Position numbers and translations under genes: made by a program. 64,000 nt of DNA. It comes from Salinibacterium xinjiangense (GTDB taxonomy: Bacteria; Actinomycetota; Actinomycetes; Actinomycetales; Microbacteriaceae). The notes under the pieces were generated by a model that worked only from the letters and a program-made list of their open reading frames with translations, did no database searches and had not been told where the DNA came from. Of this stretch, positions 46,140 through 59,207 are shown piece after piece. Numbering within the stretch: the stretch's first letter is position 1; every line of letters begins with the position of its first letter. Location: contig NZ_BMLC01000001.1 in assembly GCF_014645015.1 (NCBI RefSeq), positions 310,001-374,000 of the forward strand. The letters run 5' to 3'.

Positions 46140-46239
46140 CCTTCGGAAATTCAGGAACTGCCGCGAAAGCGACCGTACCTGCCGCGCTGTTGCGGGGCGC
46201 CTGACGCCCTGATCGCTGGAGTTCCTGAATTTCCGAAAG
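46140..46239. repeat. Inverted-repeat element, copy A
   Basis: Left arm CTTCGGAAATTCAGGAACT (46141-46159) and right arm AGTTCCTGAATTTCCGAAAG (46220-46239) are complementary apart from one missing T. The 60-base interior is GC-rich and shares nothing obvious with the other copies. It overlaps the last 30 codons of the nuclease-like gene and lies 50 bases upstream of the DsbA-like start. Same family as copies B, C and D. Confidence 0.93.
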
Positions 46240-47098
46240 ACGGGGGTGCGTGTGACGCCACCGCGAGTTCAACCGCGTGCAAAAAGTGACCCCAGTTGGT
46301 GAAGACCATATTGGCGCTCACCGCCATCGCGTGAAAGCCGGCGATCGTGATATCTATCGCCTTGAGGTGGTCTTTCTCGAAAGTCGCGGCGTGAAATTCC
46401 CTGCCGTCGATCTCGAGCCCGACAGTCCCGTCTATCACCATGTCGATCCGCTGGGAGCCCAAAGGAACCTGGATGGTGACCGTGTAGCCCGCAAGACGGA
46501 GCCGAGTACGTGTCAGGCTCTCGGGAAGGCTCTCGCATGCCCCGTCCACCCAGCCACGCACCCACGACTTGCTTTTCGGAAGACCAAGAAAGACCCGCTC
46601 TAGGTCGATTTCGTCCAGCAATCCGGAGTGCACGGCCCAATCGAGCGCGGCGACGGCAGTCTCGAGCTCTTCGTCCAGCACCACGCGGATGAGAGCGTCA
46701 ACGGCAGATACGCTCCACGCCGCTCCCCGCTCGCTCAGCTCTGGGGCGTCCCAGTGCACGTGAACTCCGCGCGCAGCGGCAAGCGGGCGCCTCCGGTTCC
46801 ACTGGTTGCGCAACCTTGCCGAATTGCGCGGGACCGACACCTGCAAGCGGGGGTTTGCGAGAACCCAGCCGCCCCAGTCCTGTATCGCGGAGATTCCCGT
46901 CAGCCTGCCGCCCACTCTCGCTGCGCGCACGCGAGGCTCTGCCTCGTCGACTGTCGTGTACCAGCCCTGACGAGCGCGCACCGCGGTTCCATCACGGACC
47001 GCCCGCGTGAGGTCGAGGTCGCGCGCGCCTCTCGATACGAGTTGCTGCTTTTGGGCAAGGCCGCCGAGGAGATGGATCAGTTGTGCGATGTCAACCAT
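46151..47098 (-). CDS. AbiEi-like / DUF559 PD-(D/E)XK-type protein, flanked by repeat elements
   Basis: 315 residues. The N-terminal third resembles AbiEi-antitoxin-like winged-helix segments (LTRAVRDGTAVRARQGWYTT). The C-terminal third has the DUF559/Vsr-like nuclease core: RIDMVIDG followed by GLEIDGREFH and a later basic stretch, giving Asp219, Glu229 and Asp231 as likely metal ligands. Such two-part proteins are common in actinobacteria; their function is unproven. ATG 47098 begins a family-like N-terminus (GATGCT lies six bases upstream). Residues from about 287 on (SFGNSGTPAIRAS...) are translated from repeat copy A, while copy B lies upstream. Confidence 0.82.
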   Translation of the reverse strand: MVDIAQLIHLLGGLAQKQQLVSRGARDLDLTRAVRDGTAVRARQGWYTTVDEAEPRVRAARVGGRLTGISAIQDWGGWVLANPRLQVSVPRNSARLRNQWNRRRPLAAARGVHVHWDAPELSERGAAWSVSAVDALIRVVLDEELETAVAALDWAVHSGLLDEIDLERVFLGLPKSKSWVRGWVDGACESLPESLTRTRLRLAGYTVTIQVPLGSQRIDMVIDGTVGLEIDGREFHAATFEKDHLKAIDITIAGFHAMAVSANMVFTNWGHFLHAVELAVASHAPPSFGNSGTPAIRASGAPQQRGRYGRFRGSS

Positions 47099-47190
47099 CG
47101 CCACAGCATCACGGTGGCATTCGCGACTGCGGAGATGCCAGACAAAGCCGTGGAAATCTTCCAGATCCCCCCGCAGTGGAGGAGCCGCGA

Positions 47191-47291
47191 CTTTCGGAAA
47201 TTCAGGAATAAGCACCGTTGCGCCCGCAGCAGCCCGCAGCAGACGGCGGATCACCAGCGCGGCCGCCGCCGACTTCCTGAATTTCCGAAAG
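47191..47291. repeat. Inverted-repeat element, copy B
   Basis: Left arm CTTTCGGAAATTCAGGAA (from 47191) and right arm CTTCCTGAATTTCCGAAAG (47273-47291); about 60 bases between. It lies 34 bases after the glyS stop and about 90 bases before the nuclease-like gene, which thus sits between copies A and B. Confidence 0.93.
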
Positions 47292-47324
47292 GCGGATGGG
47301 GAGTGGAGTTCGGGGCGAGGGCTT

Positions 47325-48710
47325 TTAGGCCCCGATGAGCTGCGCAGCGAGGTAGGCGCGCAGGCCCTCGAGCGGGATGCGTTCCTGGGCCATGGTGTCG
47401 CGCTCGCGCACGGTCACAGCGTTGTCATCGAGCGAGTCGAAGTCGACCGTGACGCAGAACGGCGTTCCGATCTCGTCCTGTCGGCGATAACGGCGACCGA
47501 TGGCCCCAGCATCGTCGAAGTCAACGTTCCACAGCTTGCGAAGGTCAGCGGCAACGTTACGGGCCAGCGGCGAGAGCTGCTCATTGCGCGACAGCGGGAG
47601 GACGGCGACTTTCACTGGGGCAAGCCTTCGGTCGAGGCGCAGCACCGTGCGCTTGTCGATACCGCCCTTGGCGTTGGGGGCCTCGTCTTCGGCGTAGGCG
47701 TCGATGAGGAACGCCATGAGCGCCCGGGTGAGGCCGAACGCAGGCTCGATGACATAGGGAATCCAGCGCTCATCTTTCGCCTGGTCGAAGTAGGAGAGGT
47801 CAGCGCCGGAGCCTTCCGAGTGGGTGCGCAGGTCGTAGTCTGTGCGGTTGGCGACGCCCATGAGTTCGCCCCACTCGCTGCCCGCGAAACGGAACCGGTA
47901 TTCGATGTCGACGGTGCGCTTCGAGTAGTGCGACAGCTTCTCCTGCGGGTGCTCGAATAACCGCAGGTTCTCCGGGTTGATCCCCAGGTCGGTGTACCAG
48001 CGCATGGATTCATCGATCCAGTACTGGTGCCACTCTTCGTCCGTACCCGGCTCGACAAAGAACTCCATCTCCATCTGCTCGAATTCGCGGGTTCGGAAGA
48101 TGAAGTTTCCGGGGGTGATCTCGTTGCGGAACGACTTTCCGACCTGCCCGATGCCGAACGGCGGCTTCATCCGCGAAGCACCCATCACGTTGGCGAAGTT
48201 CGTGAATATTCCCTGCGCGGTCTCGGGACGCAGGTAGTGCATCCCTTCCTCGTTGTCGACGGGGCCGAGGTAGGTTTTGAGCATTCCCGAGAAGTTCTGC
48301 GGTTCGGTCCATGATCCGGGCTGGCCGGTGTCAGGGTCGCGAATATCGGCAAAACCGTTGGCCGGCGGATGACCGTGCTTCTCCTCATACGCTTCGAGGA
48401 GGTGGTCGGCGCGGTATCGCTTGTGCGTGTGCAGCGACTCGACCAGCGGGTCGGAGAACACCTCGACGTGGCCAGAGACCTCCCACACCCGACGAGGAAG
48501 GATCACGGCAGAGTCGATTCCGACAACATCGTCGCGACCCTGCACGACGGTCTGCCACCACTGCTTTTTGATGTTCTCTTTGAGGGCCGTGCCCAGGGGT
48601 CCGTAGTCCCAGGCGGACCGCGAGCCACCGTAGATCTCTCCGGACTGGAAGACGAATCCTCGTCGCTTAGCGAGGTTGATAACGGCGTCGATCTTGCTGG
48701 GCGTTGCCAC
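47325..48710 (-). CDS. glyS: Glycyl-tRNA synthetase
   Basis: 461 residues, the dimeric (alpha2) class II enzyme. It charges tRNA-Gly. Class II motifs are visible: motif 2 [23 protein letters not shown] and motif 3 [10 protein letters not shown]; the C-terminal anticodon-binding domain ([12 protein letters not shown]) follows. The N-terminal [19 protein letters not shown] is typical. GTG start with GGAG upstream. (In alpha2 systems the gene is also called glyQS.). Confidence 0.97.
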
Positions 48711-48812
48711 GGTGTAACTCTCCTTCGGCCTGCCCGCACAGGCGCGGCATGCTATCAGTCAGCCGAGCTGGATGCCCGGTTGGCGAAGCGTCCAGCCTAC
48801 CGGTGCGGCCAG

Positions 48813-49856
48813 CTACCGCAGCGCGTGGAGCACAGCATCGACGTCGCCCTCGGTATTCCAGAGATGGAAGGATGCCCTAAGCCGGCCCGCCCGCCCCGAT
48901 GCCCTGATTCCTGCGCCGAGCAGTTTCTGCAGGTCTGCACCCGAGGCATCCGGCCAGCTGACTATCGCCTGGTGCTGCTGCGGAATTCCGAGGCCGTCAC
49001 ACAGCGCGTCGCCAAGCCCGCTCGCGCGCGCCCAGACCTCGTTTATATCGAGCCCGTCGAAGAGCGCGATCGACTGTTCAGCGCCGATCCATGCCTGCCA
49101 GGCCGGCGACACGTCGAATCGCCTCGCGGTCGACGCCAGTGACATCGATGGACCGTAGCAGCTCTTCCAGACATCGTCGCCGGCATACCAGCCGGCGTGA
49201 AGCGGCGTCAGCAGCGCGTCGAACCTGGTGGACAGGGTCAGGAATGCGACCCCCCGCGGCGCGCATAACCACTTGTACGTGTGGCATACCGTGGCGTCGA
49301 AGAGCGACGCATCCACCGGCAGCACACCGGCTCCCTGCGTGGTGTCGCACATCGTGTAGGTGCCATGCCGTGCGGCCGCGGCGTTGATCGACGCGATGTC
49401 GGCAACGACTCCCCTGGATGACTGCACGAGGGAGAACACGACCAGCCAGGTTTCATCCGTTATGGCATCGGCCAGGGCTTCGAGCGCTACAGGGCGCACT
49501 GTGATGTCTGGCCGTTGGAGGAAGGGGAACACGATCGACGAGAAATCGCCGTCGACGCACAGCACCTCGGCACCGGGGGGTACCGCGGCCGCGATGAGCG
49601 ACGTCAGCACCGAGGTCTGGGAACCCTGCGCGACGCGATCCGGATGCACGCCCACAAGGGACGCGTACGATGCCCGAGTGCGTTCGATCACCGCGTCGTA
49701 ACCCTGCGGATCCCGGTCGGCGAGACTCCACGCCTCGAGATCAGCTGTCAGGGCATCGACCGCCTGGCGGGGAGGCAGTCCTATGGATGCCACGGCCAGG
49801 TAGCCGCGCGGGTCACCGAAGCTCTCGATCGCCGACTGGAGGGATGCTGAGGTCAT
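48813..49856 (-). CDS. Class V aminotransferase-fold PLP enzyme
   Basis: 347 residues. The PLP Lys is in CHTYKWLCAPRGVAF, preceded by the Asp in YTMCDTTQGAGVLPVD that contacts the pyridine ring. The overall pattern is closer to the isopenicillin-N epimerase/kynureninase side of class V than to cysteine desulfurases. Substrate unknown. It stands 64 bases after the oxidoreductase gene on the same strand and may be co-transcribed with it. Confidence 0.87.
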   Translation of the reverse strand: MTSASLQSAIESFGDPRGYLAVASIGLPPRQAVDALTADLEAWSLADRDPQGYDAVIERTRASYASLVGVHPDRVAQGSQTSVLTSLIAAAVPPGAEVLCVDGDFSSIVFPFLQRPDITVRPVALEALADAITDETWLVVFSLVQSSRGVVADIASINAAAARHGTYTMCDTTQGAGVLPVDASLFDATVCHTYKWLCAPRGVAFLTLSTRFDALLTPLHAGWYAGDDVWKSCYGPSMSLASTARRFDVSPAWQAWIGAEQSIALFDGLDINEVWARASGLGDALCDGLGIPQQHQAIVSWPDASGADLQKLLGAGIRASGRAGRLRASFHLWNTEGDVDAVLHALR

Positions 49857-49919
49857 GCCCCAGCATCCCGCGTGCGGCCAGCGGCGGGCAAGTGCCGCCC
49901 TCGCGACTCTGGACTGGCG

Positions 49920-50978
49920 CTAGACCGACGCCGCTGCGGAGAGGGCATGAGCCCGCTCGATGATGCGTACGACCTCGAGGGCCTCCTTCGGGTCGACGGG
50001 TGACGGCGCACCCTCGAGGATGCTGGCGGCAACTCCCGCGTAGAAGTCTGGATAGGCGCCGCGCTCGGTAGGGGTGGGCTCCAGGTCGTCGGCCACGCCG
50101 ATGAGGCCCCACTCCGCTTCCGGAGTGACACCGTAGCCGTCGGACCCCGGCCAGCGCTGCTCTTTGAGGAACGGCTCCTGGTTGTCGAGGCCGTTCACCG
50201 AGTACGACGATTCAGAGCCGAGCACCCTGAAGCGCGGGCCGGTTTGACCGGCGGCGCGACTCATCGTCAGGTGCGAGCGCACGCCACTGTCGTGCAGCAG
50301 CGAGATGAACGCGTCGTCGTCGCTCACTCCCCCGTCACGCACGACCGTGAGCTCGGCAGCATCGACGGTCGCCGGGCCGAACAGTTGCAGTGCCTGGTCG
50401 ATCAGGTGGCTGCCCAGGTCATAGGTGATGCCGGCACCCTGCTCGGGGGTGGTGGAATCCTGCCAGCGGTCGCGCAACGCGCCTCCCCAGCGCTCGAACG
50501 TCGACTCGAAGCGATGGATGTCACCGAGCGCACCCTCGACGAGCAGTCGCCTGATCGTCAGGAAGTCTCCATCCCACCGGCGGTTCTGGAACACGGCGAG
50601 CAGCTTCCCGGCATCCTCGGCGGCGGCGATGAGCTGCTTCGCGTCGGTGACCGTGGGCACGAAGGGCTTGTCGATGACGACGTTCGCGCCCGCTTCGAAT
50701 GCGGCAAGAGCCTGCTCGAGATGTACATGTGCCGGTGAGGCGAGAATCACCAGGTCGAGGTCGGCAGCGCGCGCCAGCAGCTCGTCGGGGCTCCCGACGA
50801 TCTCGGCGCCGGGGTGCTGGGCTGTGGCCTGTGCCGCCCGGTCAGGGCTGCCGGTCGAGATCAGGTCGAGCCGGAACGCCGGGTTCGTCGCGATGAACGG
50901 AGCGTGGAACACCCGGCCCGACAGGCCGAAGCCGATGATGCCGGTGCGGATGGGGTTGGGATTGTGCGTGGTAGGCAT
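49920..50978 (-). CDS. Gfo/Idh/MocA-family oxidoreductase
   Basis: 352 residues. N-terminal Rossmann domain (IIGFGLSGRVFHAPF), the family motif NVVIDKPFVPTVTDAKQL with the catalytic-region Lys, and a C-terminal alpha/beta domain. NAD(P)-dependent oxidoreductase of sugars or similar compounds; substrate not predictable, though the YxH-like pattern resembles the YhhX/YdgJ group. ATG 50978 has TAGGCT six bases upstream and no ribosome-binding site: leaderless pattern, separate from the NAD operon that ends nine bases upstream. Confidence 0.91.
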   Translation of the reverse strand: MPTTHNPNPIRTGIIGFGLSGRVFHAPFIATNPAFRLDLISTGSPDRAAQATAQHPGAEIVGSPDELLARAADLDLVILASPAHVHLEQALAAFEAGANVVIDKPFVPTVTDAKQLIAAAEDAGKLLAVFQNRRWDGDFLTIRRLLVEGALGDIHRFESTFERWGGALRDRWQDSTTPEQGAGITYDLGSHLIDQALQLFGPATVDAAELTVVRDGGVSDDDAFISLLHDSGVRSHLTMSRAAGQTGPRFRVLGSESSYSVNGLDNQEPFLKEQRWPGSDGYGVTPEAEWGLIGVADDLEPTPTERGAYPDFYAGVAASILEGAPSPVDPKEALEVVRIIERAHALSAAASV

Positions 50979-50987
50979 TCAGCAAGC

Positions 50988-52136
50988 CTAGCCAAAGAGG
51001 GATGAGGCGAGCGTACCGACGGTCGCAGACGCCCCAGCCAGGTGCCTCGCGGCCTCCCGCAGCTGTTCGGCGGTGATGGTCGAATCCATGCTGAATCTCA
51101 CGGCCGTCTGCGCGACCTCCCGGTCGATTCCCATGGCCAGCAGCACATGCGAGGGCTCGTCGCTGCCGACGGCACATGCCGAGCCCGCCGAGCAGACCAC
51201 ACCGCGCCGGCCGAGTTCGAGCAGGATCGACTCGCCGCTCGTGCCCGGGAAGCAGAAGGAAGCGTTGGATGCCAGACGCCCCTGCCGCGGACCGGTGAGC
51301 TGCGACCCCGCCACCGTGTCGAGCACCTCGGTGATGAAGTCGTCGCGCAGGGCGGTGACCCGATCCGCATCGGCTACGCGAGTGCTCTCGCTGAGTCGGA
51401 TTGCCGCTGCGAGCCCGACGATCCCGGCAACATTCTCGGTGCCGGACCGGCGATCGCGCTCCTGGCCACCACCGTGCAGGAGTGGCTCCAGGGCGACCCT
51501 GCGGCGCAGATACAGTGCGCCGATTCCCTTGGGTGCACCGAGTTTATGACCGGAGATGCTGATGGCGTCCGCGCCGAGACTGCGCAGGTCGATCCATGCA
51601 GCGCCCTGCACGGCGTCGGTGTGCATGACCGCTCCAACGCTGTGAGTGAGCGAAGCGATCTCGCGGACGGGTTGGACAGCGCCCACCTCGTTGTTTGCGA
51701 GCATGATGCTGACGAGGGTGGTGTCGGGCCTGAGCAGTGCGGCCACCTCATCCGCGTCGACAATTCCTAACCCGTCGACTCCGACCACAGTGGTCTCGAA
51801 CCGATGGAACCGTTCAAGATACGCGCACGACTCCCGCACCGCCTCGTGCTCCACCGCCGAGATGATGAGATGCCTGCCCCGGGGGTTGGCGAGCGCCATG
51901 CCCTTGATCGCGAGATTATCGGATTCGGTTCCGCCTGACGTGAAGACGATCTCGGACGGCCTTCCGCCGAACAGGTCGGCGACGGTGGCCCTGGCATCCT
52001 TCACCGCAACCGCGGCCGACTCGCCCAGTTCGTGATGACTGGACGGGTTGCCGAAATCACCGCTGAAGTAGGGCCACATCGCCTCGAGCACTTCTCGACG
52101 CACCGCGGTCGTGGCCGAAGCATCGAGGTAGATCAC
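50988..52136 (-). CDS. Cysteine desulfurase of the NAD operon
   Basis: 382 residues. PLP enzyme that takes sulfur from Cys for Fe-S cluster assembly. The PLP Lys is in SISGHKLGAPKG, the active Cys in GVVCSAGSAC, and the C-terminal SDEPSHVLLAMG is typical of IscS/NifS. The GTG start overlaps the nadC stop as GTGA. Encoded together with NadA, which needs a [4Fe-4S] cluster, it most likely serves that enzyme, as known for NifS-like proteins in other nad operons. Confidence 0.93.
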   Translation of the reverse strand: MIYLDASATTAVRREVLEAMWPYFSGDFGNPSSHHELGESAAVAVKDARATVADLFGGRPSEIVFTSGGTESDNLAIKGMALANPRGRHLIISAVEHEAVRESCAYLERFHRFETTVVGVDGLGIVDADEVAALLRPDTTLVSIMLANNEVGAVQPVREIASLTHSVGAVMHTDAVQGAAWIDLRSLGADAISISGHKLGAPKGIGALYLRRRVALEPLLHGGGQERDRRSGTENVAGIVGLAAAIRLSESTRVADADRVTALRDDFITEVLDTVAGSQLTGPRQGRLASNASFCFPGTSGESILLELGRRGVVCSAGSACAVGSDEPSHVLLAMGIDREVAQTAVRFSMDSTITAEQLREAARHLAGASATVGTLASSLFG

Positions 52137-52981
52137 GTGATGGCCATGTCAAGCCCGAGGTCGAGGGCCCGAACGCTGTGGGTCAGTGCACCCACGGAGA
52201 TCACGTCGACGCCGCACCTCGCGATCTCGCCAACGGTGTCGAGATCGACCCCTCCGCTGGCCTCCACGAGCGCTCGACCAGCCACGATGGCGACACCCTC
52301 GCGTAGCTGGGCCGGGCTGAAGTTGTCGAGCATGATGGTGTCGACCCCGGCTGCCACGACGGGCTCGATCTGTTCGATACGGTCGACCTCGACCTCGAGG
52401 TGGGTCGTGTGCCCCAACCGCTGCCTGGCTGCGCGGATGGCATCCCCGATCGGGATGCCCGCCTGCTGCAGGATCGCGAGGTGGTTGTCTTTGGCGAGCG
52501 CGGCATCTGAGAGCGAGTAGCGGTGGTTGTGACCACCACCGTCACGTACGGCCTTCCGTTCGAGCATCCTGAGCCCCGGAGTCGTTTTGCGGGTGTCGAC
52601 GATGCGCGCCGGAGTGCCAGCCACGGCCTGCACGTAGCGGGTCGTCAGCGTCGCGATCCCGGTCATGCGCTGGCAGAGGTTGAGCGCAATCCGCTCGGCC
52701 CGCAACACTCCGCGAGCGGTGCCGTCGACACGTGCGAGCACGTCACCAATTTCGAACGAGACACCATCATCGGCGAGCAACTCGATGACGGCACCGGCGT
52801 CGACCAGCTCGAACACTCTCGCAAACACCTCGATGCCGCTCAGCACACCCGGCTCCCGCGCCACGAGGCTCGCCTGTGCGCGTGCGGATTCCGGCAGGAA
52901 TGCCTCGGAGGTGATGTCGCCCCAGGGCGCATCTTCCTCCAGCGCGCGGCGGATGATGTCGTCGACCACATCTGGATTCAC
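52133..52981 (-). CDS. nadC: Nicotinate-nucleotide pyrophosphorylase (carboxylating)
   Basis: 282 residues. It converts quinolinate and PRPP to nicotinate mononucleotide. Conserved parts: EDAPWGDITSEA, LNLCQRMTGIATLT, DTRKTTPGLRMLERKAVRDGG and LEVEVD. The GTG at 52981 overlaps the nadB stop as GTGA; a longer frame would add 32 residues without similarity. Third step of the de novo NAD pathway. Confidence 0.96.
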   Translation of the reverse strand: MNPDVVDDIIRRALEEDAPWGDITSEAFLPESARAQASLVAREPGVLSGIEVFARVFELVDAGAVIELLADDGVSFEIGDVLARVDGTARGVLRAERIALNLCQRMTGIATLTTRYVQAVAGTPARIVDTRKTTPGLRMLERKAVRDGGGHNHRYSLSDAALAKDNHLAILQQAGIPIGDAIRAARQRLGHTTHLEVEVDRIEQIEPVVAAGVDTIMLDNFSPAQLREGVAIVAGRALVEASGGVDLDTVGEIARCGVDVISVGALTHSVRALDLGLDMAIT

Positions 52982-54516
52982 TGGATAGCCTCTGCTTTCA
53001 CTCGTGCACTCATGGAGCCAACACAGTCGAAGGAGCTGGCATATTGACCTGAAGCATCCGGGAAGTCTCTGCGCCAATGTGCTCCGCGGGACTCTTCACG
53101 GCGCAGGGCAGCCCGCACGACGAACCACGCGAGATCCAGCAGGTTACGGGTCTCCAGATCATGGATCGACTCGCCCGGCACGGTCCACCGCGTGAGCTGG
53201 CTCGCCGCTGCCTCGAGGCCTTCCGCGGATCGCTCGATGCCCACGAGATCCCACATGAGTCGCTGCAACTCCGCGCGTTCGACGGGCTGCGTGCCAGTGG
53301 TGGGGTCGATCACCGTCACGTCCCGCCGATCGGGCGCGGGCCACGGCTCACCCAGCACCTCGGTGGCACGCCAAGCGAACACGAGAGATTCGAGCAGCGA
53401 ATTAGATGCGAGCCTGTTCGCGCCATGAACACCCGTGCACGCGACCTCGCCGACCGCGAACAGCCCTTCCAGCGACGTACGCCCGTAGGCGTCCGTGCGA
53501 ATTCCCCCCATCCAGTAGTGCGCCGCGGGCGTCACGGGGATCGGAGTTGTCGCCCAGTCGAAACCGTTAGCCGTGCACGACCGGTCAATACCGGGGAAGC
53601 GCTGCTCAAGGAACTCGCGGCCGAGGGATGTGGCATCCAGCAGCACGGGGCGACCGCCCTGTGCCGCCATCGCCGACGCGATTCCCCGGGCCACGACGTC
53701 ACGCGGGGCAAGCTCGCCGTCGGGGTGCACGTCGAACATGAAGCGGCGTCCGGCCTCATCCAGCAATGCTGCACCCTCGCCACGCACAGCCTCAGAGACC
53801 AGCGGGGTGCCAGCAACGGCGAGCGCCGTCGGATGGAACTGGTAAAACTCGAGATCGGCGAGCTCGACGCCAGCACGGAGCGCCGCAGCCGTGCCATCAC
53901 CGGTCGCGACCAGCGGATTCGTCGTGTGAGTGTAAAGCTGCCCGGCACCACCACTGGCGAGAATCACGATGTCTGCAGCGATCACGCGACGGTCACCGTC
54001 GGGATCGACGACCTCGATGCCGCTGACCCGGCGCTCGGGACCGCTGTCGTCGATCACGAGGTCCCGCATGAAGGTGTTTTCGTGCACTTCGAGGGCGAGG
54101 TGTCGCACCGCAGCAACCAGCGCTGTCTCGATCACCAGCCCCGTGGCATCCCCACCGGCATGGATGACGCGTCGCGCGGAATGCGCCGCCTCATGCCCGC
54201 GCTCGAGTTCCCCATTGATGCGGTCGAACTCCACGCCCAGCGCGATCAGGTCGCGAACCCGACCCGGACCCTCCGCGCACAGGATGTCCACCGTTGTGGC
54301 ATCGCACAGTCCGTCGCCTGCCCGCACGGTATCTGCGGCATGCGCCTCGGGGCTGTCATCGGGGAAAAGCGCCGCCGCGATGCCACCCTGGGCGTATTTC
54401 GTGTTGCTCTCGCCGAGATCCGCTTTGGTCACCAGCACCACGTCATGCTCGGCGCTCGCACGATAGGCGGCGATCAGTCCGGCAATTCCGGTGCCGACGA
54501 TGACGATCCTGGCCAT
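52978..54516 (-). CDS. nadB: L-aspartate oxidase
   Basis: 512 residues. FAD enzyme that oxidises L-aspartate to iminoaspartate. N-terminal FAD motif VGTGIAGLIAAY, the family segment ESNTKYAQGGIAAAL and HPTAL, and the C-terminal helical domain of the fumarate reductase type. The ATG overlaps the nadA stop as TGATG. Confidence 0.96.
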   Translation of the reverse strand: MARIVIVGTGIAGLIAAYRASAEHDVVLVTKADLGESNTKYAQGGIAAALFPDDSPEAHAADTVRAGDGLCDATTVDILCAEGPGRVRDLIALGVEFDRINGELERGHEAAHSARRVIHAGGDATGLVIETALVAAVRHLALEVHENTFMRDLVIDDSGPERRVSGIEVVDPDGDRRVIAADIVILASGGAGQLYTHTTNPLVATGDGTAAALRAGVELADLEFYQFHPTALAVAGTPLVSEAVRGEGAALLDEAGRRFMFDVHPDGELAPRDVVARGIASAMAAQGGRPVLLDATSLGREFLEQRFPGIDRSCTANGFDWATTPIPVTPAAHYWMGGIRTDAYGRTSLEGLFAVGEVACTGVHGANRLASNSLLESLVFAWRATEVLGEPWPAPDRRDVTVIDPTTGTQPVERAELQRLMWDLVGIERSAEGLEAAASQLTRWTVPGESIHDLETRNLLDLAWFVVRAALRREESRGAHWRRDFPDASGQYASSFDCVGSMSARVKAEAIQ

Positions 54517-55793
54517 CAGGCCACGACCGGGGTGGCGGCAGGCCGTACAGCGAGCATGCGCTCAAGGGCCACACGGGCGCCGGTGGCGACATCTGCCGGC
54601 ACTGAGATCTGGTTGATGACCTCGCCTCGCACGAGCCCCTCGAGCACCCAGGCGAGGTAGCCGGGATGGATGCGGTACATCGTCGAGCACGGGCAGATCA
54701 CGGGATCGAGGCAGAAGATCCGGTGTTGCGGATACTCCGCCGCCAGCCGGTTGACCATGTTGATCTCGGTGCCGATGGCGAAAGTCGTCGGTTCGGTTGC
54801 CGCGGCGACAGCTTTCCGGATGTAGTCGGTCGATCCCGCCTCATCTGCTGCATCGACGACGGCCATCGGACATTCCGGATGCACGATCACCCTGACCCCG
54901 ACGTGCGCCGCTCGCGCCGCCTCGATCTGCGCGACCGTGAAACGCTTGTGCACGCTGCAGAATCCGTGCCAGAGGATGACCTTCGCGTCGAGGACATCGC
55001 TCCCGGCATTACCGCCGAGTGGCTTATGCGGGTTCCACATCGGCATGAGTTCGACGGGGATTCCCATCGCCTTCGCGGTGTTGCGCCCCAGGTGCTGGTC
55101 GGGGAAGAACAGCACGCGCTGCCCGCGTTCGAACGCCCACTCCAGCACGGTTGCCGCATTCGAACTCGTGCAGACGATTCCGCCATTGCGGCCGCAAAAA
55201 TCTTTCAGCGCCGCCGACGAATTCATATAGGTGACGGGGATGATCGGAACCCTGCCTGCGGCATCCGGCGCTGTGCCGTAGACCTCGGCCAACTGCTCCC
55301 AGCAATCCTCCACCGAATCGATGTCGGCCATATCGGCCATCGAACAGCCCGCTGCAAGGTTCGGGAGGATGACGGCCTGGCCCGGCTTCGCGAGGATATC
55401 CGCCGTTTCAGCCATGAAGTGCACACCGCAGAAGATGATCGCCTCGGCGTCGGGCACAGTCTGGGCGGCGTTGGCGAGTTGGAAGGAATCCCCCAGGAAG
55501 TCGGCGTGCTGCACGACCTCGTCACGCTGGTAGAAGTGTCCGAGCACAACCGCGCGGCTTCCGAGAAGCTGTTTGGCCGCACGGATGCGTTCGTTCAGTT
55601 GATCATTCGATGCGTGCTGGTATTCCAGCGGTAACTGGCCCTGGCGAGGTGACCCTGTCGGGATCACGTCGCCCATCGACGAACCGGGTCCGTAGCCGGG
55701 CGTTCCGAGGTCCAGGGTCCACGGACCCTCGGCAAGTTCGGGGGCACAGCTCTCCCCCGGGGCGCTCCGGATGATGGCGTCAACTGATGGCAC
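54516..55793 (-). CDS. nadA: Quinolinate synthase
   Basis: 425 residues. [4Fe-4S] enzyme that condenses iminoaspartate with dihydroxyacetone phosphate. Likely cluster Cys residues lie in NLAAGCSMAD, GIVCTSSNA and the C-terminal CPCSTM. GTG 55793 is chosen because AGGGAG lies upstream and it overlaps the end of the NrtR gene by 14 bases; a longer frame would read through that gene in another frame and was rejected. Confidence 0.95.
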   Translation of the reverse strand: MPSVDAIIRSAPGESCAPELAEGPWTLDLGTPGYGPGSSMGDVIPTGSPRQGQLPLEYQHASNDQLNERIRAAKQLLGSRAVVLGHFYQRDEVVQHADFLGDSFQLANAAQTVPDAEAIIFCGVHFMAETADILAKPGQAVILPNLAAGCSMADMADIDSVEDCWEQLAEVYGTAPDAAGRVPIIPVTYMNSSAALKDFCGRNGGIVCTSSNAATVLEWAFERGQRVLFFPDQHLGRNTAKAMGIPVELMPMWNPHKPLGGNAGSDVLDAKVILWHGFCSVHKRFTVAQIEAARAAHVGVRVIVHPECPMAVVDAADEAGSTDYIRKAVAAATEPTTFAIGTEINMVNRLAAEYPQHRIFCLDPVICPCSTMYRIHPGYLAWVLEGLVRGEVINQISVPADVATGARVALERMLAVRPAATPVVA

Positions 55794-56493
55794 GATTACT
55801 CCCTGTCTTCTCTCGGCTGATGGGGCCGTTGTCGACCACCTCGATGGTCTGGTTGTAGCGATAGAGCTTCGGCGGGCGATGACGCCCGCCAGAGACCACC
55901 GCTCCCGTCGGAACAAGCGTCGATGCGACCTGGCGTCGGAAATTCGCGGGATCCAGCGGACGACGCAGCACGGCCTCGTGCACCTCACGCAGGTCGGTGA
56001 GGGTGAAAGTCTCGCCGAGGAATGCCTGGGCTATACGGCTGTACTCGAGCTTGGTTCGCAGTCGCCACAGCGCGTAGTCGATGATCACGTTGTGATCGAA
56101 GGCGAGCTCGGGCAGGTCATCGGCCGGGAACCACCGCACGTTCTCGCCCTCAGTCGCCCGCTCGGCCTGGTCTGCGCGCACGAGCGCCCAGTAGACGATG
56201 GAGACGACGCGACCGGAGGGCGAGCGGTCCACATTACCGAAGGCATACAGCTGTTCGAGGTACGTCGGCTCGAGGGCTGTGGTCTCGAGCAGGTTGCGGG
56301 ATGCGGCATCCGCCAGCCCCTCCTCGGCGCGCACCCACCCACCGGGCAGTGCCCAGCGTCCGCCGAACGGCTCGGTGATGCGGCGCACGAGCGGGATCCA
56401 GAGCGCGCCGAGCCCTGACTCGGCGTCGGAGCGCAGCGCGAAAATGACCGTAGACACGGCCAGCGGAATCCCGTCTCGCGGTGAGGCTGCCAT
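55780..56493 (-). CDS. nrtR: NrtR-type NUDIX regulator of NAD synthesis
   Basis: 237 residues. The N-terminal NUDIX-like domain has a degenerate Nudix box (GGWVRAEEGLADAASRNLLETTAL lacks the REUxEE acidic pair), fitting a sensor rather than a hydrolase. The C-terminal winged helix ends with the usual HRPPKLYRYN. NrtR binds ADP-ribose or related NAD metabolites and represses nad genes. It is the first gene of nrtR-nadA-nadB-nadC-desulfurase. Two palindromes of the NrtR type flank the promoter just upstream, pointing to autoregulation. GAGGGG precedes the ATG. Confidence 0.93.
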   Translation of the reverse strand: MAASPRDGIPLAVSTVIFALRSDAESGLGALWIPLVRRITEPFGGRWALPGGWVRAEEGLADAASRNLLETTALEPTYLEQLYAFGNVDRSPSGRVVSIVYWALVRADQAERATEGENVRWFPADDLPELAFDHNVIIDYALWRLRTKLEYSRIAQAFLGETFTLTDLREVHEAVLRRPLDPANFRRQVASTLVPTGAVVSGGRHRPPKLYRYNQTIEVVDNGPISREKTGSNRAIS

Positions 56494-56511
56494 CGTGTAT
56501 CCCCTCAGTAA

Positions 56512-56526
56512 AGGTCTTTATGACCT
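56512..56526. promoter_or_regulatory. NrtR operator O1
   Basis: Perfect palindrome AGGTC-N5-GACCT, right at the predicted transcription start and 19 bases before the nrtR ATG. It would block promoter clearance. Confidence 0.8.
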
Positions 56527-56532
56527 GAAGAG

Positions 56533-56561
56533 AGTGTAACACTTCGGGTCAGCCTGACCAA
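56533..56561 (-). promoter_or_regulatory. Promoter of the nrtR-nad operon
   Basis: On the minus strand TTGGTC (56556-56561) and TACACT (56533-56538) are separated by 17 bases. Start of transcription is expected near 56526. O2 overlaps the -35 and spacer, O1 the start point. Confidence 0.75.
56547..56559. promoter_or_regulatory. NrtR operator O2
   Basis: Perfect palindrome GGTCAG-C-CTGACC, also of GGTC-N5-GACC form. It is 34 bases from O1, about three helical turns, so both sites face the same side of the DNA. Confidence 0.75.
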
Positions 56562-56614
56562 AAGACTGAGGGCGGCTTCACAGCCACGCCCGCACTTCCC
56601 ACCGCCCCGCCCCC

Positions 56615-56712
56615 CTTTCGGAAATTCAGGAACTGCGCAGCCGCGCGGCGACGCGCGCCGCCAGGCTCCGGCTTTCGGATTCGGCGAGACCGCGACACTT
56701 CCTGAATTTCCA
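56615..56712. repeat. Inverted-repeat element, copy C
   Basis: Left arm CTTTCGGAAATTCAGGAACT (56615-56634) is intact. The right arm ACTTCCTGAATTTCC (from 56697) is decayed at its outer end, reading CAACG instead of CGAAAG. It lies 38 bases after the uppS stop and before the NAD promoter region. Confidence 0.9.
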
Positions 56713-56750
56713 ACGTCAGGGGGTCGCGGACAGGTCGAGCGGCTCCCGCC

Positions 56751-57554
56751 TCAGGCAGTCGGGGTGTCGATCGCGCCACCGAATCGGCGGTTGCGATTCG
56801 CGTACGTCATGATTCCCTGCCAGAGATCTTCACGCGTGAAATCAGGCCAGAGCGTGTCGAGAAACACCATCTCGGCGTATGCGCTCTGCCACAGCATGAA
56901 GTTGCTCGTGCGCTGCTCCCCCGAGCTGCGCAGGAACAGGTCGACATCGGGCAGGTCGGGCACGTACAGATGCTTCTGGATGGTTTTCTCCGAGATCCCG
57001 GACGGCTTAAGCCGCCCCGCCGCAACCTCATCCGCAAGCGCCCGAACGGCGTCCGTGATCTCGTTGCGCCCGCCGTAGTTGATGCACATCGTGAGCGTCA
57101 GGGTCGAGTTCTGCGCCGTGAGTCGTTCGGCGAACTGCAGTTCATTGATGACCGAGCCCCACAGCCGCGGGCGGCGCCCGGCCCAGCGGATTCGCACCCC
57201 CCACTCGTTGAGCTGGTCGCGCCGGCGGTGCAGCACGTCACGGTTGTAGCCCATCAGGAATCGAACCTCGTCGGGCGAGCGCTTCCAGTTCTCGGTGGAG
57301 AACGCATAAACACTCAGGTGCTTGACCCCGACCTGAATCGCTCCGGCCACCACCTCCAGCAGGCTTGCCTCGCCAGCCTTGTGGCCCTCGATGCGTGTGA
57401 GGCCTCGAGCGTTGGCCCAGCGACCGTTGCCATCCATGACGATCGCGATATGTTCGGGCACAGCTTTGCGTGGGAACGCCGGCGGTTGGATACCCGTCCA
57501 GTCGATGGGGCGAAACTCGACCGCATCCTTGTGGGTCTTCCCGACGGGACTCAT
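56751..57554 (-). CDS. uppS: Isoprenyl (undecaprenyl-type) diphosphate synthase
   Basis: 267 residues. cis-Prenyltransferase that makes the lipid carrier for cell-wall synthesis. Motifs: [28 protein letters not shown] and [19 protein letters not shown]. The ATG at 57554 overlaps the recO stop as ATGA; a 107-residue N-terminal extension in the same frame is a shadow of recO. Chain length of the product cannot be read from sequence. Confidence 0.96.
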
Positions 57555-58312
57555 GCCGTGCGGCCGATCCGGGCGGGCCCGGCGTCGGTGGAACGATCGA
57601 CGTGCTGCAGCGAACGCAGCGATCGCTCGAGATGGAACTGCGCATACGCCGCGACAACACCGCTCGCCTGGTTGCGTGCGCGATCGTCCGCCGCCTCGGC
57701 GGCCTCCCACCGGCCCTCGATAAGTGCACCGAGAAGGTCCAGGGTGTCGAGGTCGAGCCGCGGAGCGCCGGGAGGGGCGACCTCGTCTGCGACGACCCCA
57801 CCCAGCTGTGCGACGAAGACCGTGTGAGGTCCGGGCGCGCCGGTGACGGCGCAGTCTTCGAAACTGGGCGCCCATCCCGCGATCGACAGCGACCGCAACA
57901 GGTACGAGTCGAGGGTAAGGCTCGGGTGGTGCTCCCGCCGTGCGAGCGAACGCAGGGCCCCCACCAGCAGGAGGTATTGCTGCAGGCTGCCATCATCATC
58001 CGTGATCTTGTCGGCCGTCTCGATCATGGCGCTTGCCGCGGTGTAGCTCGCATAGTCGTCAGCTATCTCCGCGCCGTACGACCCGAGGGACTCTGCCTGC
58101 TGGATGATGTCGAGGCTCCGACCGACGTAACACTGCACGTCGGCGACCATCATCGGCTCCAGTCGTGCGCCGAACTTCGACGCCGTGCGACGAACTCCCT
58201 TGGCTACGGCGCGGATCTTGCCGTGCTGCCGAGAGAGCATCGTCACGATGCGATCGGCTTCACCCAGTTTGTGGGTGCGCAGCACAACGGCTTCGTCACG
58301 GTAGGTCGGCAC
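57551..58312 (-). CDS. recO: DNA repair protein RecO
   Basis: 253 residues. Recombination mediator that loads RecA with RecR. The N-terminal OB-fold begins [25 protein letters not shown], and the central helical region with [13 protein letters not shown] replaces the four-Cys zinc site of some RecO proteins by a single Cys. GTG start with GATAAT six bases upstream: a leaderless pattern. Confidence 0.94.
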
Positions 58313-58444
58313 ACCACGATTATCCTCTCCTCCACCGTCAGTTTCTGGATGCCCGGCCGACAGGCTCGACGGATCCGCTCGACAGCAACGGCGAACCGGT
58401 GGTGCCGCAGCAGGCGGTCACGCTCGCCATGGTACGAATAGAGC

Positions 58445-59101
58445 GTGACTCCCACGTTCGTGATCCCCCTGTGGGCCGACCTGCTCGCCATCGGCATCGG
58501 AGCGGCGCAGGGTGCGCTGTTCGCTGCCCAGTTCCGGGACCGCAGGCTCGACCTGCTCGGCGTCGCCATCATCGGCGTCGCAACCGGCTTCGGCGGAGGA
58601 ATCCTGCGCGATGTGCTGCTGGCACAGGTGCCTGCAGCCCTGACCAGCAACTGGTACCTGATCGTGGCGACCGGCGCCGCCCTCATGGGCATGCTGCTCG
58701 AGCGTCTCATCTCCCGGCTGGGTCCGCTCGTCACCGTGCTCGACGCGCTCACCATCGGGCTCTTCGGCGCGATCGGTACGACGAAGGCACTGGCGATCGG
58801 TCTTCCGGAGGTACCGGCGATCTTCGTCGGCGTGCTGTCGGCCGTGGGCGGCTCGATCCTGCGCGACCTGCTCCTGAACCGGCCGATCGCGCTGATGCAC
58901 GTCGGTTCGCTCTACGCCCTGGCTGCCGTGGCGGGCACCGGCACACTCACGCTGCTGCTGCGGCTCGACGTCGACGTGTTTCTCGCCGCATCGTCGTGCG
59001 TCGCCCTGACCTTCGGCGTCCGAATTCTCGCGGTGCTGTTCAACTGGACGCTGCCGGAACAGCGCGCCATCGAAAAGATGCCGCGCATCCGCCGTCGTTG
59101 A
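58445..59101 (+). CDS. TRIC-type cation channel (UPF0126)
   Basis: 218 residues with seven hydrophobic helices in two repeats of three plus one. Each repeat holds the family glycine motif: GFGGGILRDVLL and GGSILRDLLL. Prokaryotic TRIC homologues are trimeric potassium-permeable channels. GTG start, divergent from recO, with no clear ribosome-binding site. Tail to tail with leuA across repeat copy D. Confidence 0.92.
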   Translation: MTPTFVIPLWADLLAIGIGAAQGALFAAQFRDRRLDLLGVAIIGVATGFGGGILRDVLLAQVPAALTSNWYLIVATGAALMGMLLERLISRLGPLVTVLDALTIGLFGAIGTTKALAIGLPEVPAIFVGVLSAVGGSILRDLLLNRPIALMHVGSLYALAAVAGTGTLTLLLRLDVDVFLAASSCVALTFGVRILAVLFNWTLPEQRAIEKMPRIRRR

Positions 59102-59118
59102 CCCCCCGACCGCGATCC

Positions 59119-59207
59119 CTTTCGGAAATTCAGGAACTCAGCGCGATCTCGTCCCGGGGAACCGCGTAGTACGCCGTCCGATGTCGGACTTCCTGAATTT
59201 CCGAAAG
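59119..59207. repeat. Inverted-repeat element, copy D
   Basis: Arms CTTTCGGAAATTCAGGAACT (59119-59138) and ACTTCCTGAATTTCCGAAAG (59188-59207) pair along almost the full length with 49 bases between, the shortest copy. It lies between two convergent genes, 18 bases after the TRIC stop and 34 bases after the leuA stop. Confidence 0.95.

Follow-up and report, generated by a model that had tools for sequence, protein, structure and literature searches.

To our knowledge, REPIN/RAYT is the most thoroughly studied partnership in which a bacterial gene long stays put while maintaining a population of tiny repeats. A REPIN is described as two inverted repeats enclosing a highly diverse spacer, and the RAYT gene as single-copy and vertically inherited (PMC8049555); a GTAG or CGTC tag is given as a feature of most REPs (PMC3733652). 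Two other protein families bear on the locus presented here. Antitoxins of the AbiEi family are reported to autoregulate by binding inverted repeats in their own promoter (PMC7319586), and the homing endonuclease I-Bth0305I is described as a dimer on a target of nearly 60 bp (PMC3943268). The gene-plus-repeat pairing found in this work, which recurs in many related bacteria, appears to represent a type of in-genome mobile or regulatory system that has not been described before, and no account linking the AbiEi-like/EDxHD protein family with repeats was found among the titles and abstract openings of the open-access literature.

The window, i.e. the whole stretch of 64,000 nucleotides of Salinibacterium xinjiangense DNA that was analysed, had originally been predicted to contain four copies of an inverted-repeat element, and all four were confirmed at their positions. 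Copy 1 spans 46140–46239 (arms 46140–46159, plus, and 46220–46239, minus), copy 2 47191–47291 (arms 47191–47210, plus, and 47272–47291, minus), copy 3 56615–56712 and copy 4 59119–59207; the elements as such have no assigned strand. Allowing up to 3 mismatches, the 20-mer arm matched 7 times in the window compared to 0 times in 100 shuffles. The eighth arm, the right one of copy 3, is missing its outer bases and has the sequence TTCCTGAATTTCCAACG. A gene absent from the original prediction (46151–47098, minus strand) is situated between copies 1 and 2 and encodes a protein with an AbiEi-like winged-helix N-terminal region and an EDxHD/Vsr-like (MTES_1575/DUF559) nuclease domain. Copy 1 overlaps the 3′ end of this gene (46151), its left arm containing the stop codon, and copy 2 is located on the 5′ side, 33 bases from a tRNA-synthetase-like ORF ending at 47325. 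Copy 3 lies downstream of uppS (minus strand), 38 bases from the ORF end at 56751. Copy 4 is placed between a convergent pair, a Gly_transporter-family gene (plus, end 59101) and a leuA-like gene (minus, end 59241), at distances of 17 and 33 bases, respectively. The predicted placement, with each copy overlapping the 3′ end of a gene-like ORF or no more than about 40 bases away from it, holds for the window. It does not extend to a general rule, however: according to a crude gene caller, 72 of 180 elements lay between tandem genes, 42 inside an ORF call, 35 in convergent and 20 in divergent regions, and 11 at a locus edge.

The original prediction had proposed a search of the genome and its relatives with the arm, and had named as its refutation just four copies without counterparts in relatives; this refutation did not occur. 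The own genome (3.02 Mb, 9 contigs) holds 8 inverted pairs of the window arm, 4 of them inside the window. As a 17-mer with up to 2 mismatches, the arm is present in 23 of 99 genomes, these 23 being spread over six genera of a single family; with the reversed pattern, 7 genomes had one chance match each. When genome contigs were scanned for inverted pairs, 105 stretches emerged that, among the matches listed, came from Microbacteriaceae genera, Salinibacterium amurskyense among them, or MAGs, a few being labelled merely Micrococcales/Actinomycetota. One genome carries a small tandem arm array with one plus and three minus arms, the latter spaced 45 bp (G047:C1:3125253-3125463). In another (G017:C1), two canonical arm matches are duplicated about 794.5 kb apart (837858, 849748, 1632380, 1644392).

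The nuclease comprises 315 aa from the ATG at 47098, a start picked from the ortholog alignment; the ORF remains open upstream as far as a GTG at 47254. Residues 1–185 have the AbiEi fold (6y8q), and the nuclease domain has the EDxHD/Vsr catalytic fold and residues, the latter being conserved. The immediate neighbours encode a DSBA-like protein and a class II tRNA synthetase, and no AbiEii (DUF1814) toxin gene directly adjoins the window gene. The family profile, which covers proteins annotated as DUF559, MTES_1575 or AbiEi-domain, matched in 293 of 394 genomes of the class, and many genomes hold several diverse members each. Grouped by flanking genes, 52 of 70 gene loci fell into nine shared groups and 18 were ungroupable, indicating that the nuclease gene stays put where loci can be compared; the partner gene is vertically inherited. 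A phage origin was rejected, as the exact paired pattern was found 0 times in viral contigs and the nuclease 0 times in phages. A plasmid origin was likewise rejected: the nuclease had 2 weak plasmid matches, neither with convincing flanking pairs, and both plasmid members, from Tsukamurella, had flank scores of 12 and 15, no better than chance.

The flank test behind these scores presupposes no particular arm; it asks whether both flanks of a gene hold an inverted pair of one and the same 12-mer. Of the 22 ortholog loci, 20 scored ≤11 and 2 missed the cut; for the 47 paralog loci, the figures were 38 and 9. Random anchors, 400 in the window and 250 in other loci, never scored as low. At the level of the class, 19 of 29 loci scored ≤10 and 10 failed; among the controls, this score was reached by 8 of 290 mixed flanks and by none of 400 anchors. 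Left and right flanking elements mostly had gaps equal within 1, and several of the remaining differed by about 11. The two paralogs of the own genome are flanked by arms CGAAATGACGGA and CAAATGAAGGAG, and subfamilies elsewhere by AACGCAGGAGAT, GAACTCAGGCAG, GAATCTGTGCCT and others. Each subfamily has its own arm sequence, the repeat usually differing from one type of gene to the next. Where element pairs lay 1.05–1.09 kb apart, the gene between them was the nuclease wherever the crude caller found the right frame.

Arm and protein diverge together. Among the 99 genomes, at least two canonical arm matches occurred in 17 of 21 genomes with an ortholog (E≤1e-39) and in 1 of 78 without. In the four remaining ortholog genomes (G001, G013, G030, G049), the arms next to the gene are altered, in G013 just on one side. 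A variant-arm pattern, GGYAAYTCAGG, built from the flanks of G013 and G030 and from arms of G004, found inverted pairs in G004 (7, a scan not blind since its variant arms were known beforehand), G013 (4) and G030 (3), one pair per genome adjoining the nuclease gene, and none in the other 96 genomes. Similarity of arms correlated with that of the proteins most highly in the winged-helix part (r 0.79) and least in the nuclease part (r 0.56), a correlation for part of which kinship by itself would account.

Subfamily arms likewise form dispersed populations. Counting pairs that adjoin genes, AAATGAMGGA pairs were present in 8 of 60 genomes (29 in the own genome, 35 in G023 and 3–10 in six others), and AAAYGCAGGA pairs in 10 of 60 with up to 21. 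Within another family of the class, pairs of GATCGTACTGA numbered 3 in G223, two of which adjoin its gene, and 0 in 7 other genomes. Reversed-pattern controls gave 0 for these three scans and for the variant arm. Among the matches listed, no nuclease stood beside the AAATGAMGGA arm in G007 and G015, nor beside the AAAYGCAGGA arm in G007, G009, G018 and G022. Elements were clustered near the gene in the three genomes where clustering was noticed: of the non-flanking places, 14 of 14 were on the gene's contig in G055, 5 of 13 within 50 kb of the gene in G047, and 6 of 19 on the gene's contig in G004.

With regard to element anatomy, two details of the original prediction had to be refined. The 20-bp arms are present, but strong conservation across 180 pairs is limited to a 12-bp core, GGAAATTCAGGA, with a weaker CYTTC outside and RWT inside. 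Text matches to this core in the open-access literature looked unrelated, as judged by title. The arm spacing, predicted as 49–63 bases, actually falls into discrete classes. In the set of 167 pairs that remained after removal of look-alikes, core-to-core gaps were centred on means of 56.1, 67.2, 77.3 and 88.0. One pair each had a gap of 46 and 102, and the ranges 60–64, 70–75 and 80–86 were empty. The best period was 10.85 bp, with 10.5 and 11.2 fitting almost equally well. Two other arm families had an even tighter spacing: pairs of AAACGCAGGA had a gap of 54–56 in 38 of 39 cases and pairs of AAATGAAGGA one of 54–57 in 39 of 40. As the gaps are quantised by helical turn, both arms are probably recognised by a protein from the same side of the double helix.

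The interiors are mostly unrelated: among the 180 elements, 30 similar pairs involving 40 elements were found, some representing one element counted twice via tandem arms. In the related pairs (29 rows, one pair counted twice), arms were 98% identical and interiors 76%, a comparison in which the arms themselves had served to select the pairs. Interior folding hardly exceeded that of shuffled sequences (mean z −0.21, s.e. 0.09, n = 180), and no element matched Rfam at gathering scores. Profiling of the arm families revealed weak signals at the centre of the interiors. Near the middle, AAGCGCTT recurs in several G004 and G013 elements, and some G008 and G023 elements have middles resembling CCAGCAAAA. 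In G004 (L395:1079-1263), two tandem 94-bp palindromic units GGGTTGAGTAGG...ACTCAACCC, perhaps a different family of dispersed palindromes, adjoin a AAACGCAGGA element.

Some dispersed copies in G008 and G023 show a likeness of 70–88% across the element, in either orientation, which ends with the arms or extends no more than about 25 bp past them. Because these copies match just at the element, the aligned sequences indicate that some copies have moved as a discrete unit; most interiors have nothing in common, and thus most copies show no trace of copying. At three loci of G023 (L330, L338, L343), adjacent elements 157–176 bp apart have interiors 95–96% identical, which suggests recent local copying. 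No direct repeat of 2–9 bp exceeded the level in permuted flanks (172 elements, 60 permutations), and most elements may be too old to retain a target duplication. At one G008 site and in the intergenic stretch that holds copy 3, some relatives have no element, yet comparison of relatives at these two places gave no clean empty-site junction owing to surrounding indels and other sequence differences. In G013, the copy 3 region also contains an element with differing arms, which fits either one ancestral site or two insertions.

Taken together, we consider it probable that these components form a two-part system in which the AbiEi-wHTH/EDxHD nuclease reads and copies its phased bipartite elements, phased recognition being held more firmly than copying. 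The vertically inherited nuclease gene would be the partner of a population of short bipartite elements, which its product would recognise. Since AbiEi-family proteins bind inverted repeats and I-Bth0305I acts as a dimer, it is natural to suppose that a dimer would read two in-phase arms: two subunits would contact the two inverted arms of about 12 bp through their winged-helix domains on one DNA face. Such same-face reading would fix the spacing at whole helical turns and leave the middle free. The nuclease domains may then act in or near the element, occasionally leading to its copying to new, often nearby, sites, and selection would keep the arms matched to the protein. That binding, cleavage and copying are carried out by this nuclease is what we infer from comparative data.

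The elements might instead be operators or chromosome-architecture sites, with an AbiEi-like repressor of its own gene, dispersed pairs forming a regulon or bridging the nucleoid, and the nuclease secondary. The reported autoregulation of AbiEi antitoxins via promoter inverted repeats (PMC7319586) is in line with this, as are arms kept (98%) while middles drift (76%) as in functional sites, although the arms selected those pairs. Elements are, however, located on both sides of the gene and not at the promoter alone, and among intergenic contexts the divergent one is the least common (20 of 180 by the crude caller). The catalytic residues are kept and related copies moved as units, and we regard operators as unlikely, if worth serious consideration. 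A toxic or defence nuclease, restriction-like or suicidal, whose elements titrate the protein or act as own-genome triggers, appears quite improbable: AbiEi kinship, the restriction-endonuclease-like fold and the several diverse family members in many genomes would suit it, but PADLOC gave a weak AbiEi match (E 0.0086), the immediate neighbours include no toxin partner, and cleavage at tens of targets in the own genome would come at a high cost.

Ordinary MITEs or REPINs mobilised by another transposase, the nuclease gene being merely a frequent neighbour, would likewise be dispersed and have terminal inverted repeats of about 20 bp. Against this, the arm sequence follows the nuclease across species and paralogs, and target duplications were not detected. 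The search for a RAYT/Y1 gene proposed in the original prediction gave 0 matches to the Y1 transposase (PF01797) in the own genome, with matches in 5 of 14 genomes as a control; such mobilisation is very improbable. We give still less credence to RNA elements, i.e. large terminators or structured RNAs with a 20-bp stem. Complementary arms and the position of the window copies at 3′ ends would fit, but interiors folding hardly above shuffled sequences, the missing Rfam match and loops of 55–90 nt quantised by DNA helical turns, for which RNA offers no obvious reason, speak against them.

Beyond the locus, we lean slightly towards the wider view that domesticated element-copying nucleases occur class-wide in Actinomycetes, convergent with RAYT/REPIN, with each gene keeping and spreading its own phased bipartite elements and the diverging pairs of winged-helix domain and arm representing a natural DNA-recognition code. 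If true, a second, unrelated enzyme would lead a REPIN/RAYT-like life, such a lifestyle would evolve repeatedly, and the large protein family that carries DUF559, MTES_1575 or AbiEi-domain annotations would gain a role. Dozens of matched protein–target pairs would then be available for learning how winged helices read DNA.

Among known systems, MITEs and insertion sequences share terminal inverted repeats and movement as a unit with the elements described here. They differ in that no target duplication was found here, interiors are mostly unrelated, and the partner gene occupies fixed loci where comparable. AbiEi antitoxins of type IV toxin-antitoxin systems resemble residues 1–185 in fold (6y8q), and the family is reported to recognise inverted-repeat DNA (PMC7319586). 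In contrast, the present protein is fused to a nuclease, no AbiEii adjoins the window gene, and sites lie on both sides of the gene as well as dispersed. The catalytic domain shares fold and residues with Vsr and with the EDxHD homing endonuclease I-Bth0305I, the latter also described as dimerising on a long target (PMC3943268); here, however, the nuclease has an AbiEi-like N-terminal half, its gene is found at one locus where comparable, with no homing allele noticed among the loci compared, and many bipartite sites occur in its own genome. The predicted likeness to REPIN doublets stands for the layout, with paired inverted arms, a diverse spacer, dispersal, a flanked and vertically inherited partner gene, and co-divergence of gene and arms. 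It does not stand for membership, as the partner is an AbiEi-like/EDxHD nuclease and RAYT a Y1 transposase. Furthermore, the window arm and its complement lack a GTAG or CGTC tag, the interiors show no folding, the gaps are tied to whole turns of the DNA helix, and several subfamilies coexist per genome. Our best reading is thus a REPIN/RAYT-like partnership built around an unrelated nuclease.
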